Source: Stappia sp. TSB10P1A
Lineage (GTDB): Bacteria; Pseudomonadota; Alphaproteobacteria; Rhizobiales; Stappiaceae
Assembly (NCBI RefSeq): GCF_900185725.1
Contig: NZ_FYAU01000025.1
Location: 1 to 64,000, forward strand
DNA length: 64,000 nucleotides
Reading direction: 5' to 3'
Positions 49,113-58,329 of the stretch are shown here, one piece after another. The translations under genes were made by a program, and so were the position numbers. Every line of letters begins with the position of its first letter. Positions within the stretch are counted from its first letter, which is position 1. The notes beneath the pieces were generated by a model. It worked only from the letters and a program-made list of their open reading frames with translations. It was not told where the DNA came from and did not search any database.

Positions 49113-50411
49113 ATGAGCGCAGCCGCAAAGCCAGGGACAAGACCGGCGAAGTCGTCCGACACGCCGGCCTTCGCCCGGTTCGAGTGGATGCTGGCCGGGC
49201 GCTATCTGCGCTCGCGCCGCCGCGAGGCGTTCATCTCCGTCATCGCCGGCTTCTCCTTCCTCGGCATCATGCTGGGCGTCGCCACGCTGATCATCGTCAT
49301 GGCGGTGATGAACGGCTTTCGCGGCGAGCTGCTGACCAAGATCCTCGGCATCAACGGCCATCTGCTGGTCCAGCCCATCGGCAGCGAGCTCGACGACTAC
49401 GACGCCGTCGCCGCGCGCATCGAGAACCTGACCGGGGTCACCTTCACGCTGCCCTTCGTCGAGGGGCAGGCGCTGATTTCCGGTCCCTCGGGGGCGTTCG
49501 GCGCCCTGGTGCGCGGCGTGCGCGAGAGCGATCTGGTGCGCCTGCCGCTGGTCGCCAGCACGGTCAGCGTCGGCACGCTGGAGGGCTTCGACGAGAGCGA
49601 GGGACTGGCCATCGGCACGCGCATGGCCCGCCAGCTCGGCGTCACCGTCGGCGACATGGTCACCCTCGTCGTGCCGCGCGGCAATGTCACCGCGCTCGGC
49701 GTCACGCCCCGGGTCAAGGGCTATCCGGTGCGGGCGATCTTCGAGATCGGCATGTCGGAATATGACGGTACCATCGCCTTCATGCCGCTGGACGAGGCGC
49801 AGCTCTTCTTCAACCAGGAGGGCATCGTCACCGGCATCGAGGTCTTCACCACCGATCCGGACAGGGTCGGCCCCATGCGCACCGCCATCGAGGAGGGGGC
49901 CGGGCGGCCCGCCTTCGTCAGCGACTGGCGGGCGCGCAACATGACCTTCTTCTCCGCGCTCGAGGTCGAGCGCAACGTGATGTTCCTGATTCTCACGCTG
50001 ATCGTGCTGGTGGCGGCGCTCAACATCATTTCCGGCATGACCATGCTGGTGAAGGACAAGGGCCGCGACATCGCCATCCTGCGGACGATGGGCGCGACGC
50101 GCGGCACCATCCTGCGCGTGTTCCTGATCACCGGCGCCAGCATCGGCATCGTCGGCACGCTGGCCGGCTTTGCCCTCGGCTTCGTCGTCTGCCTCAATGT
50201 CGAGAGCATCCGCCAGGGCATTTCCTGGCTGACCAGCACCGAGCTGTTCTCGCCGGAGCTCTATTTCCTCAGCCGCCTGCCGGCCGACATGGACACCGGC
50301 GAGACCATCACCGTCGTGGCGATGGCGATGGTGCTGTCGCTGCTGGCAACGGTCTATCCCGCCTGGCGGGCGGCCAGGCTCGATCCGGTCGAGGCGCTCA
50401 GATACGAATGA
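49113..50411 (+). CDS. lolC: lipoprotein-releasing ABC transporter permease LolC/E
   Basis: Inner-membrane component of the Lol system that extracts outer-membrane lipoproteins. The 432-residue protein has an N-terminal span ([20 protein letters not shown]), a large periplasmic MacB-like domain, and three C-terminal spans with [35 protein letters not shown] and [18 protein letters not shown]. Alphaproteobacteria often have one such permease acting as a homodimer; no second is seen here. Its end overlaps lolD by 4 bp. Confidence 0.94.
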
Positions 50412-51139
50412 CCATGGCCCGGAAACAACAGCAGCAGCCGCCGCCGCATCTCGAAGGGCTGGAGAACCTGCCCCTGGTGCTTGCCGGCATCAATCGCGGC
50501 TTTCGCGAGGGCGAGGGCCGTCTCGACATTCTGGTCGATGCCAATCTGGCGCTGCATCCGGGCGAACTCGTGGCGCTGGTCGCCCCGTCCGGGGCCGGCA
50601 AGTCGACCCTGCTGCACATTGCCGGGCTGCTGGAGCGCCCCGACAGCGGCGAGGTCTATGTCGGGGGGCTCGCCTGCGGCAGCATGGACGATGCCGACCG
50701 CACGCGCATCCGCCGCACCGAACTCGGCTTCGTCTATCAGTTCCACCATCTGCTGCCCGAGTTCACCGCCCTTGAGAACCTGGTGATCCCGCAGCTCATT
50801 CGCGGCCTCGACAAGCGCGAGGCGGAGGAGCGGGCGAGCCAGTTGCTCGACTATATGCGCCTCGGCAACCGGGCGAGCCACCGCCCCTCGGAACTGTCGG
50901 GCGGCGAGCAGCAGCGCGTGGCGATTGCCCGCGCCGTCGCCAATGCGCCGCGCATCCTGCTGGCCGACGAGCCGACCGGCAATCTCGATCCCGGCACTTC
51001 CAGCTATGTGTTCGACGCGCTGGTGGCGCTGGTGCGGGCCTCCGGCCTTGCCGCGCTGATCGCCACCCACAACATGGAGCTGGCGGGCCGCATGGACCGC
51101 CGCATCACCCTGCGCGACCAGCAGATCATCGAGCTCTGA
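50408..51139 (+). CDS. lolD: lipoprotein-releasing ABC transporter ATPase LolD
   Basis: ATPase of the Lol exporter, 243 residues. Walker A SGAGKST within [20 protein letters not shown]-loop [18 protein letters not shown], signature [15 protein letters not shown], Walker [16 protein letters not shown] 50408 overlaps the lolC/E stop. In relatives dnaE follows soon after; here 3.7 kb of repeats and a TPR gene intervene. Confidence 0.95.
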
Positions 51140-51643
51140 TGCTGCCACGGGGGCTCGGCAGGGCGCGGCGTCTTCGCTCCTCCTCCCAGACACAGCGTCT
51201 CTTTCGTCCCCCCGGACGCACCTCTCCTTCGTCCTCCCGGACGAGGCCGAAGGCCGCAGATCCGGGATCGGCGAGCCAGGGCGTCTACGGGTACACCCGA
51301 CAACGCCGCCGACAGGCTCTCGGCTCCCCGGTCCCGGCTCGGCGCTCGCGCGCCGTCCGGGAGGACGCCGAGGAGAGGCCGGAGCGACAAACACCCGCTG
51401 AGGGCACCTCTGGTTCCCGGATCTTCGGCCTTCGGCCTCGTCCGGGACGACCCTCGAGAGGGTGGCACGGCCTTGCATCCTCTCTGCCGTCACACCGGGC
51501 AAGGCGCAGCCGCGACCCGGTGTCCATTGGTTGCCAGAGCGGCGGCGAGGACGCGCTGGCCGAGCCTCTCGCGCGCCTACCTCGGTTGCATCCCGCTTGT
51601 GATTGCCTCCCGCCTTGCTAGGATGGCGGGCAGGGGATGAGAG
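51140..51643. other. 504-bp intergenic region between lolD and the TPR gene
   Basis: It is almost entirely hairpin repeat (cluster 2). The last 40 bp hold the G-rich ribosome-site region of the TPR gene. I see no gene and no clear promoter. Confidence 0.7.
51215..51610. repeat. hairpin repeat cluster 2 (lolD-TPR gap)
   Basis: It contains the 33-nt hairpin with arms TCCCGGA (51415-51421) and TCCGGGA (51441-51447), a CACCGGG/CCCGGTG hairpin near 51495-51525, and the motif CCATTGGTTGCCAGAGCGG near 51526. About 90 bp (51386-51474) is nearly identical, in the same orientation, to 53435-53526 on the other side of the TPR gene. Confidence 0.85.
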
Positions 51644-53428
51644 TTGGGGGCTGCATTGGGGGAAACATCCGCGATCCGCGAAGCGGTGAAGATGGCCGCC
51701 GGCTGTCTCATCGCGACGGGCGGAGCCATTAACCTGCTCCCTGTTCCTCCCGGCGCGGTCGAGGCGATCTTTGCCGGCGGCGCATGGTTCGGCGCGCTGT
51801 CGAGCGCCCGTCGCCGCGATCTTGAGCGCGTTATCGAGCGCACGGCCCTTGAGGTCGAGGCCGAGATGGCGGCCTGGGTGCCTCGATCCTCCCAAACCGA
51901 CATGGGCGACCTCGCTCATGCGAAGGCCTCCTTCATCGACGTGCTGCCGCAGGCGATGCCGGCGCCAGCCGATCTCGTCGGCAGGAACCTGCAGCCAGAC
52001 GGGATCGCGGTGCTGGTGCTGGAGCGTGCCGAAGCGGCCCGACCCCACATCTACAAGGACAAGGGCGCGAAGGACCCGGCCAATCAGCTTGCCCGCCGCT
52101 TTCTGCTTCAGGCGATCGAACGCGCCTGCGCGCGTCTGCTCGCCGATGCCGAGTTCATCGACGACCTGCGCCCGTCGCTGTGGCGCGAACTCCTGGAGCG
52201 CACCGGCCGGATCGAGGGCAACACGGAAAAGCTGCTCGCCGGCCAGCGCGCGCAGGACGAGCAGTTGAACCACATCAAGGCCCTGCTCGCCGCCATGGGC
52301 GACAAGGCCGCGACCGCCCTTGCCAGCGGCATCACCGACGCAGCCTTGATCGAACTGGCCCGCCGCGTCTCCGCCGACGTTTCCGACCCGCAACAGGCCT
52401 TCCGCGAGCTGGAAAACGCCGTCGAGATCGCCATTCGCGTCCAGCAGGAAGGGCGGCAGGGCTCCAATCTCGGCGCCTTTGTCGACGAGGTGCTGGCCCG
52501 CGTCGCGACGCTCGCCGCCACCGGCGCTTATGACGAGGCGACGGCCGAAATCGACGCCGCTCTCGCCAGGGAAGCGGAGGAAGCCCGCCGTCTGGAGGAG
52601 CGCCGGCAGGAGTCCCGCGCCCGCAGCCTGCGCCTGCTCGACGCTGCCATCGAACAGGATCTGCTGCGCCGCGATGCCGACAGCGCCGCCGCCCGCCTTG
52701 TCCGCAAGGCGGAGATCGAGCGTCCCGAGGGCGCGAGCCTGTTCGATCATCTGCGCGCCGTCCAGGACGACTGGTACGAACGCGGCCGCGACAAGGAGCT
52801 CAATCTCGATCTCGGGGTCGCGATCGCCCTTGCCGTGTTGGGCACGCGCGAGGCCGGCACGTCGCGGCTGGAACAGGCGGTCGAGGCCTTCCGGCTGGCG
52901 CTGGAGGAGCGGACGCGGGAGCGCGTGCCGCTCGACTGGGCGATGACGCAGAACAATCTCGGCAACGCGCTGCAAGAGTTGGGCACGCGCGAGGGTGACC
53001 CGGCGCGGCTGGAGCAGGCGGCCACTGCCTACCGGCTGGCGCTGGAGGAATGGACGCGAGAGCGCGTGCCGCTCCAATGGGCGATGATGCAGAACAATCT
53101 CGGCGCCGCACTTGCCGAGTTGGGCAGGCGCGAGGCCGGCACGTCGCGGCTGGAGGAGGCGGTCGCGGCCTTTCGGCTGGCGCTGGAGGAGCGGACGCGC
53201 AAGCGCGCGCCGCTCGACTGGGCCGCGACGCAGAACAATCTCGGCAACGCGCTGCAAGTCTTGGGCACGCGCGAGGCCGGCACCGAGCGGCTGGAGGAAG
53301 CGGTCGAGGCCTACCGGCTGGCGCTGGAGGAATTCACCCCCGAGACCGCGCCGTATTATCACGACGGAACGACGCAAAACCTTGCTATCGCCCAAACACT
53401 GCTGGACGAGCGGCAAAGGGAGCCTTGA
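51644..53428 (+). CDS. TPR protein with hydrophobic N-terminal segment, unknown function
   Basis: A 594-residue protein. Residues about 15-50 include a hydrophobic Gly/Pro-rich stretch (AAGCLIATGGAINLLPVPPG, then AIFAGGAWFGAL). The middle (60-330) is helical and contains a coiled-coil-like EEARRLEERRQESRARSLR. Residues about 403-590 are four 47-residue TPR-type repeats (EAGTSRLEQAVEAFRLALEE, then TRERVPLDWAMTQNNLGNAL); the last is degenerate. The repeats are exact 141-bp periods in DNA. Similar TPR blocks occur in bacterial conflict and signalling proteins, but no enzymatic domain is evident. Start TTG 51644 (AGGGGA upstream) or TTG 51656. It is flanked on both sides by direct repeats and splits the usual lolD-dnaE pair. 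Confidence 0.8.
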   Translation: MGAALGETSAIREAVKMAAGCLIATGGAINLLPVPPGAVEAIFAGGAWFGALSSARRRDLERVIERTALEVEAEMAAWVPRSSQTDMGDLAHAKASFIDVLPQAMPAPADLVGRNLQPDGIAVLVLERAEAARPHIYKDKGAKDPANQLARRFLLQAIERACARLLADAEFIDDLRPSLWRELLERTGRIEGNTEKLLAGQRAQDEQLNHIKALLAAMGDKAATALASGITDAALIELARRVSADVSDPQQAFRELENAVEIAIRVQQEGRQGSNLGAFVDEVLARVATLAATGAYDEATAEIDAALAREAEEARRLEERRQESRARSLRLLDAAIEQDLLRRDADSAAARLVRKAEIERPEGASLFDHLRAVQDDWYERGRDKELNLDLGVAIALAVLGTREAGTSRLEQAVEAFRLALEERTRERVPLDWAMTQNNLGNALQELGTREGDPARLEQAATAYRLALEEWTRERVPLQWAMMQNNLGAALAELGRREAGTSRLEEAVAAFRLALEERTRKRAPLDWAATQNNLGNALQVLGTREAGTERLEEAVEAYRLALEEFTPETAPYYHDGTTQNLAIAQTLLDERQREP

Positions 53429-53440
53429 GGCCGACGACGA

Positions 53441-54354
53441 AACACCCGCCGAGGGTGCCAATGGTTCCCGGATCTTCGGCCTTCGGCCTCGTCCGGGACG
53501 ACCCTCGAGAGAGTGGCACGGCCTTGCCCAACCCTCCGAGGTCACCCCGGACGAGCATCGCGAGATCCGGGGGCTATTGGTTTCCAGAGCGGTTGCGAGG
53601 ACGCGCTGGCCGAGCCTCTCGCGCGCCTATGCCGGTTGCCTCTCGCGCTCACCTCTCCCCGCGTCCTCCCGCGCTACGCCCTCTCTTTCGTCCTCCCGGA
53701 CGCAGCCTCTCCTTCGTCCTCCCGGACGGAGCCGAAGCCGCAGATCCGGGATCGGCGAGCCGAGGGCCTGTCGGAAACGCTCCAGAACAACACCGCCGTG
53801 GCTCCCCGGTCCCGGCTCGGCGCTCGCGCGCCGTCCGGGAAGACGCCGAGGAAAGGCTGGAGCGACAAACACCCGCCGAGGGTGCCAGTGGTTCCCGGAT
53901 CTTCGGCCTTCGGCCTCGTCCGGGACGACAGCCTGAGAGAGTGGCACGGCCTTGCCCAACCCTCCGAGGTCACCCCGGACGAGCATCGCGAGATCCGGGG
54001 GCTATTGGTTTCCAGAGCGGTTGCGAGGACGCGCCGGCCGAGCCTCTCCCGCGCCTACCCCGGTTGCATCCGGCACTCACCTCTCCCCGCGTCCTCCCGC
54101 GCTCCGCCCTCTCTTTCGTCCTCCCGGACGCAGCCTCTCCTTCGTCCTCCCGGACGGAGTCGAAGCCGGAGATCCGGGATCGGCGAGCCGAGGGCCTGTC
54201 GGAAACGCTCCAGAACAACACCGCCGTGGCTCCCCGGTCCCGGCTCGGCGCTCACGCGCCGTCCGGGAAGACGCCGAGGAAAGGCTGGAGCGACAAACAC
54301 CTGTCGAGGGTGCCAATGGTTCCCGGATCTTCGGCCTTCGGCCTCGTCCGGGAC
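53441..54354 (+). repeat. tandem repeat of about 428 bp (hairpin repeat cluster 3)
   Basis: Unit 1 53441-53867, unit 2 53868-54295, partial unit 3 54296-54354; offsets of 427 and 428 bp with only scattered mismatches. Each unit carries the 33-nt hairpin (53466-53498, 53893-53925, 54321-54353, all with the same arms), the motif ATTGGTTTCCAGAGCGGTTG and the phrase CTCCAGAACAACACCGCCG. Confidence 0.92.
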
Positions 54355-54434
54355 GACGCCAGGCAAAGGCATCCCGCCTCATGCCCGCCGGTGCTCCTCT
54401 GCGCCTTCGCTCCCGACCTTGCGCTGCCCCCGGT

Positions 54435-54479: not shown

Positions 54480-54508
54480 TTGCAAAAAGAACAAAACATG
54501 AACATACT
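54480..54508 (+). promoter_or_regulatory. promoter with SOS box in its spacer
   Basis: TTGCAA (54480-54485), 17-bp spacer, CATACT (54503-54508). The LexA box fills nearly the whole spacer, the classic layout for repression. The predicted start lies about 30 bp before the small ORF. Confidence 0.6.
54489..54503 (+). promoter_or_regulatory. LexA (SOS) box, GAAC-N7-GAAC
   Basis: GAAC (54489-54492), seven bases, GAAC (54500-54503): a perfect match to the direct-repeat LexA operator of alphaproteobacteria (GTTC-N7-GTTC on the other strand). Confidence 0.75.
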
Positions 54509-54544
54509 TGGATTATCGAGAGGATCTGAGCAAGGGAGGGACCC

Positions 54545-54661
54545 ATGTTCGACGAATTTCACGATCACTTTCAGGATCTGGCCGCGCTGGCGGCGCTGAC
54601 CCTGTTCGGCACCACCATGCTGCTGTGGAGCAGCGCCATCGCCGAGCTGCTGACCTCCTGA
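54545..54661 (+). CDS. 38-residue single-span membrane protein, candidate SOS-induced
   Basis: A short ORF: acidic, His-containing N terminus (MFDEFHDHFQD), then one hydrophobic helix (residues about 12-36, LAALAALTLFGTTMLLWSSA...). The site GGGAGGG (54534-54540) is 4 bases from ATG 54545, and 34 of 38 codons end in G or C, so translation is very likely. The promoter holds a perfect LexA box. Size, topology and control recall Caulobacter SidA, a 29-residue SOS-induced membrane inhibitor of cell division; I see no clear sequence identity and the parallel is inference. It lies 227 bp upstream of dnaE on the same strand. Confidence 0.7.
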   Translation: MFDEFHDHFQDLAALAALTLFGTTMLLWSSAIAELLTS

Positions 54662-54888
54662 CGCGCGGCGTCTCCCGCCGGCGCGGCGACCCGCCGGCGC
54701 GGCGCGCGCCAGTCTTCTGTGCAGGATGCGCCCATATCTGGGGATCGGCGGGCAGGGCGGGTCGACATTGACCGGCGGACGCGGAACACTGCCGGCTCAC
54801 CGGCGGCCCGACCCGATCCTGCGCGAGGCTTGAGCCTTCCGCGCGGGCGGCCCGGCCCCCAACACCGGCAGGAGCGACAGGGCAGACG

Positions 54889-58329
<3,441 letters not shown>

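Follow-up and report, generated by a model that had tools for sequence, protein, structure and literature searches.

The window, which is the entire 64,000-nucleotide stretch of Stappia sp. TSB10P1A DNA that was analyzed, carries a 38-codon ORF on its forward strand (54545..54661, from the ATG at 54545 to the TGA at 54661) that encodes the peptide MFDEFHDHFQDLAALAALTLFGTTMLLWSSAIAELLTS. The ORF ends 227 bp ahead of the start of a longer ORF on the same strand (54889..58329), which we take to be dnaE from its sequence. Farther upstream, also on the forward strand, is an ORF (50408..51139) that presumably encodes a lolD-like ABC ATPase. When AlphaFold2 is applied to the single sequence of the 38-aa peptide, one helix is predicted to span residues 2-37, with a mean pLDDT of 95.4.

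A perfect LexA-type SOS box (GAACAAAACATGAAC, of the form GAAC-N7-GAAC) resides on the forward strand at 54489..54503, and 41 bp separate the end of this box from the ATG. Two forward-strand hexamers can be read from the sequence around it: the -35-like TTGCAA (54480..54485), whose TTG is invariant across the genus alignment, and the -10-like CATACT (54503..54508). The ribosome site AAGGGAGGG (54532..54540, forward strand), also read from the sequence, has a GGAGG core at 54535-54539, and a purine-rich site ahead of the start was recognized by eye in 14 of 14 genomes of the genus. The box, the ORF, and the strong ribosome site had all been described in a first-pass annotation and are found where it placed them, but its count of codons ending in G or C is 33 of 38 on recounting, not 34. 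It had also placed the box in the spacer of a TTGCAA/CATACT promoter. The box does fill that spacer, but it also overlaps the first base of the -10-like hexamer, and the hexamers are weak, fitting the sigma-70 consensus at 8 of 12 positions by hand count. A consensus promoter scan, which needs nine matches, found no promoter.

A weak terminator-like GC stem (54696..54710, forward strand) is predicted between the ORF and dnaE, with one such stem found versus 0.3 expected; folding of this region is no better than that of shuffled sequences (z 0.84). The same gap holds a second conserved non-coding patch in the genus alignment (54725-54790, including CTGGGGA and TCGACA), which may be the dnaE promoter. 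Between lolD and the ORF, long intergenic direct repeats with a spacing of ~428 bp occupy 51322-54382. The copies are 73-96% identical in ungapped comparison, and an 88-bp unit is present four times; the repeats surround an ORF with 141-bp internal repeats that appear TPR-like by eye. In four close relatives (loci L002-L005), an extra box-like motif, GTTC-N7-GTTC as read on the gene strand, lies downstream of the promoter and ahead of the ribosome site. This second motif is absent from the window.

SOS boxes elsewhere in the genome

The window holds four copies of GAAC-N7-GAAC, compared with 1.30 expected, and four are reached in 5 of 100 shuffles. The whole genome has 101 copies versus 95 of a reversed control, and box frequency was rejected as evidence on this ground. 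The box motif by itself proves little; it is conservation, not the motif, that exceeds chance and carries the case.

The contig that carries the ORF also encodes a LexA DNA-binding domain. Twenty boxes, most with AT-rich spacers, were picked by hand from the genome list, and nine adjoining proteins were run against Pfam. Four of the nine, beside AT-rich boxes, are RecA, SSB, MmcB-like, and HhH-GPD proteins. The other five do not belong to DNA-repair families (a radical SAM protein, an aminotransferase, a SnoaL_2 match below the cut-off, and two proteins without a family).

On contig C35 of this genome (L240), a perfect AT-rich SOS box (85985-85999) adjoins an HhH-GPD gene. On the opposite strand, ~170 bp past the box, is a 28-aa hydrophobic ORF, MLKFIGGTVGFIFLVGLVVVIGILMLIF (85746-85829), with a strong ribosome site. 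The locus of this 28-aa ORF is present in 5 of 41 genomes searched, own genome included, and all five belong to the same genus.

Conservation within the genus

A 38-codon ORF with a perfect box close upstream is present in all 14 genomes of the genus that were searched, including the genome of the window. Among the 13 unique sequences from the genus, column identity averages 0.94 over the 20 bases that hold the box, lies between 0.66 and 0.80 along the ORF, and is 0.23 over the next 20 bases. The pooled pN/pS ratio for these 13 sequences is 0.41, and pairwise ratios are 0.00-0.16 among the most similar sequences and rise as high as 0.76 in some distant pairs. As judged from these alignments, the ORF is under purifying selection in the genus. 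The first-pass annotation had named lack of conservation or frameshifts in relatives as signs that would count against a functional gene. The sequence half of this test was run on relatives and revealed neither.

Caulobacter SidA occupies the same position

Named genomes were also scanned by pattern, which added Caulobacter vibrioides DSM 9893 and four relatives to the comparison. dnaE was found in four of these five genomes, each of which has a 29-aa ORF directly upstream, and a box, GAACATCTTGTGAAC, starts 64 bp ahead of that ORF in all four. The C. vibrioides ORF, which is the only one of the four that was scanned, corresponds to NCBIfam model NF033228 (cell division inhibitor SidA) with an E value of 2e-20 and a score of 72.4 bits. 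Passages of published reports describe SidA as a 29-aa inner-membrane protein that acts on FtsW (PMC4211646), and assign CCNA_02004 to sidA (PMC10769358), CCNA_02005 to a nucleoside hydrolase (PMC3667746), and CC1926 to dnaE (PMC1839093, table).

A SidA search of 119 Caulobacteraceae genomes gave matches at E <= 1 in 99, some of which are plainly chance. Among the 30 top-ranking loci, 29 have the N-terminal motif of DnaE 43-104 bp past the ORF, and the thirtieth is cut. A perfect box is found within 110 bp in 19 of these 30 loci, and two of the other 11 are cut by contig ends. The first-pass annotation had likened the ORF to SidA in size, topology, and control. This analogy is strongly supported, in that C. 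vibrioides SidA is itself an SOS-boxed small ORF directly upstream of dnaE, and it is backed as well by the gene order in 29 of 30 Caulobacteraceae loci and by the profile match described below.

Distribution of boxed ORFs upstream of dnaE

When 61 genomes were searched with the ORF, 28 gave a match at E <= 1, including 14 of 14 genomes of the genus, and matches beyond the genus are weak. Of 30 loci returned by the search, 24 carry a perfect box a short distance upstream, among them matches with E values of 0.03 to 0.6. Thus, the box independently supports the weak matches. Six loci (L024, L025, and L027-L030) lack a box in the vicinity of the match and were discarded as chance hits. A class-wide HMM search with the order alignment produced matches at E <= 1 in 195 of 387 genomes, most of which were chance where inspected; from the 30 loci returned, one of them from the window's own genome, the seven with a box were kept. 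dnaE is downstream in all 31 box-bearing loci tested (the 24 plus the seven class-level loci; tblastn with the first 400 DnaE residues). Upstream, lolC or lolD is found in 24 of the 31, within regions that reach 1.5 kb each way.

Starting instead from dnaE, which was located in 375 of 387 class genomes, we surveyed the region upstream of it in 110 cases. Thirty of these belong to the best DnaE matches, among them that of the window's own genome, and 80 were chosen among the matches listed, with one to three per family. Regions were scored for a perfect box within 700 bp together with a hydrophobic ORF of 24-75 aa starting no more than 140 bp from the box. A perfect box occurs in 33 of the 110 regions, and box plus ORF in 27, in a count that misses L063, whose hydropathy is just under the threshold, and that enters L101, L114, L120, L140, L141, G046, and G045 as box without ORF. 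Twenty shuffled copies of the 110-region set average 2.15 boxes, and none has a box together with an ORF. The gene is thus widespread but patchy, as the combination was not scored in 83 of the 110 regions.

From an additional 41 genomes of the family and order, 40 regions were obtained, of which 25 have a box and 23 have box plus ORF; the shuffle control applies to the class set of 110 regions. Box plus ORF is found in 13 of 17 regions from the window's family and in 10 of 23 from other families of the order. G059 is common to both survey sets, and the regions cut by contig ends include L081, L100, and L135. When the loci from the 61-genome search are counted as well, the ORF is recognizable by eye in all but one of the 23 other genomes in the window's family (22 of 23), and a perfect box accompanies it in 19 of the 23. 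A perfect box and a SidA-like peptide with a YLKDFVALSSMLVFF core are also present upstream of dnaE in a 1.4-Mb genome of the same order (L321, G039), which shows that a small genome can retain the gene.

Sequence similarity to SidA

The window peptide is 17-21% identical to three SidA sequences in the class alignment. NF033228 gives no match to the window ORF at E <= 10 and none in its genome at E <= 1, and searches of the ORF against Pfam and NCBIfam return nothing at E <= 10. The NF033228 cut-off of 35 bits is passed in 1 of 387 class genomes, and the window ORF falls outside the curated SidA model by this measure.

Profiles show more similarity than single sequences. When a profile of 20 SidA sequences is aligned by hhalign to a profile of 37 other peptides from dnaE loci, the probability is 92.7 and the score 26.9; none of 400 column permutations attains this score, and the best of them scores 16.1. 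If the second profile holds just the 15 peptides that come from other orders, the probability is 70.1 and the score 21.6 (0 of 400 permutations, best 18.9), and with the 22 order-level peptides these values are 25.7 and 16.6 (0 of 400 permutations, best 15.6, a thin margin). In a start-anchored, ungapped comparison of 24 hand-picked members with short N-termini, from which the 38-aa members of the genus were left out, the observed score is reached by 47 of 100,000 permutations; with separate permutation of the head and the helix columns, 135 reach it. The start codon was picked among alternatives for several of the peptides, some of which lie inside a longer frame. An R/K-D/E-x2-A-[FL]-like register is common to SidA and much of the peptide family.

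Single SidA sequences score weakly against the order HMM (3.4-13.2 bits). The C. vibrioides sequence scores 7.4 bits, a value that 35 of 5000 shuffles and 11 of 201 decoys equal or exceed, and six of the better-scoring decoys are, by eye, themselves dnaE-locus peptides. Single-sequence scoring is regarded as suggestive only.

The window ORF thus has the features of the SidA locus that are read from sequence, namely a position directly upstream of dnaE, a LexA-type box, and profile similarity, and it is also alike in size and structure, with 38 aa and one predicted helix. Orthology to SidA is likely because locus, box, size, and profile coincide. The ORF is likely to be a SidA-like positional orthologue, rather than a member of the NF033228 model.

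Proposed function and alternatives

The reading we favor, with a probability of roughly 0.7, is that the window ORF is the positional orthologue of SidA and encodes a LexA-controlled membrane peptide that holds FtsW/I/N inactive after DNA damage. Bound to the box at 54489-54503, which lies between the two promoter elements, LexA would silence the ORF. On DNA damage, RecA would trigger LexA cleavage, and the 38-residue, single-helix peptide would then be made and would insert into the inner membrane. There it may hold the late divisome complex FtsW/FtsI/FtsN inactive, and septum synthesis would be halted until repair. A model favored in a passage of PMC4211646 has SidA and DidA hold FtsW/FtsI/FtsN inactive.

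The proposed target can be compared between the two organisms. FtsW of the window genome shares 51% identity with its C. vibrioides counterpart. Among the published suppressor positions of FtsW, A246 is kept, A31 is replaced by G, and F145 is replaced by M. One FTSW_RODA_SPOVE protein is found in the 64 contigs of the window genome (G000:C17:272535-273569, L311), as if RodA were missing, versus two in C. vibrioides.

These differences bear on an explanation that we consider unlikely, in which the ORF is a SidA orthologue by descent whose function has changed. The SOS-induced, single-helix peptide would then have some other membrane target, such as another divisome or envelope protein or a protease, or would act by simple membrane depolarization. 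Such a change would fit the high divergence of the window peptide from the three SidA sequences and the substitutions at two of the three suppressor positions. Moreover, with one FTSW_RODA_SPOVE protein rather than two, the setting of wall synthesis may differ. However, the locus, the box, the size, and the R/K-D/E-x2-A-[FL]-like register that SidA has in common with much of the family argue for a retained role.

It is improbable that the box instead serves dnaE, to provide more polymerase after damage, with the ORF functioning as a leader peptide or being a translated by-product. The presence of dnaE downstream of all 31 box-bearing loci is as expected under this explanation, and the Caulobacteraceae spacing of just 43-104 bp between ORF and DnaE motif means that read-through is possible. 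However, the distance from the ORF to the DnaE match is not fixed, ranging between 26 and 486 bp in box-bearing loci, and a weak terminator-like stem intervenes in the window. The ORF is also constrained at the amino-acid level, and the C. vibrioides ORF at the same place is a recognized division inhibitor (NF033228; described as such in passages of PMC4211646). Finally, an unrelated short ORF lying by chance beside a fortuitous GAAC-N7-GAAC would be compatible with the lack of enrichment of the bare motif and with the hydrophobic small ORFs found on one side of 5 of the 50 boxes tested among the 100 elsewhere in the genome, but we hold this reading, whose probability is negligible, to be already refuted by conservation in 14 of 14 genomes of the genus, by recognizable ORFs in 22 of 23 other family genomes, and by the 27 class regions with box plus ORF versus none in shuffles.

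Relationship to known division inhibitors

The first-pass annotation had raised the prospect of an altogether undescribed checkpoint. Our results do not support this proposal; the ORF is most likely an unrecognized counterpart of a described checkpoint. We conclude that it most likely represents an unrecognized variant of the known SidA kind, with a reach across the class. Among the matches listed in a literature search that covered titles and the beginnings of abstracts, there is no SidA outside Caulobacteraceae (earlier mention of distant homologues is possible), no LexA-boxed ORF upstream of dnaE, and no description of a damage-induced division stop in Alphaproteobacteria outside Caulobacter.

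The evidence leans toward a broader proposal, in which SidA, rather than being peculiar to Caulobacter, represents in Caulobacterales one branch of an SOS checkpoint ancestral to Alphaproteobacteria, whose gene has kept its place before dnaE for a very long time. The box would have been kept while the peptide evolves too fast, perhaps tracking FtsW, for search and annotation, and the window counterpart would do the same work beside a single FtsW/RodA-type protein. The likeness of the boxed ORF beside dnaE to SidA suggests that the SidA-type checkpoint has a greater age and a broader range than current annotation models reveal. Looking just upstream of dnaE offers a simple rule for finding candidate inhibitors in many lineages, and the dozens of natural SidA variants obtained in this way can be used to map how FtsW/I/N are shut off by a 30-residue helix. 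In addition, synteny combined with a regulatory box recovers a peptide family that is hardly reached by sequence search alone.

SulA acts on FtsZ. SulA, YneA, and SosA are SOS-induced division inhibitors too, but of other lineages; YneA of B. subtilis is reported to interact with FtsW (PMC13396833). DidA of Caulobacter, as described in passages of PMC4211646, resembles a SidA-like peptide in being a small, single-helix inhibitor that is linked to FtsW/I/N and made after DNA damage. However, DidA has 71 aa, interacts with FtsN, and is induced by DriD independently of SOS (PMC4211646). The functional hallmarks of SidA are induction by way of LexA cleavage after DNA damage, a division block exerted through FtsW/FtsN, and lethality when overproduced. 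SidA (CCNA_02004; NF033228) has 29 aa, whereas the window ORF encodes 38 aa with a longer acidic head and, unlike SidA, is beyond the reach of the NF033228 model. SidA and the window ORF are alike in occupying the slot upstream of dnaE, in having a LexA-type box near the start, and in encoding about 30-40 residues with one hydrophobic helix and a similar profile.
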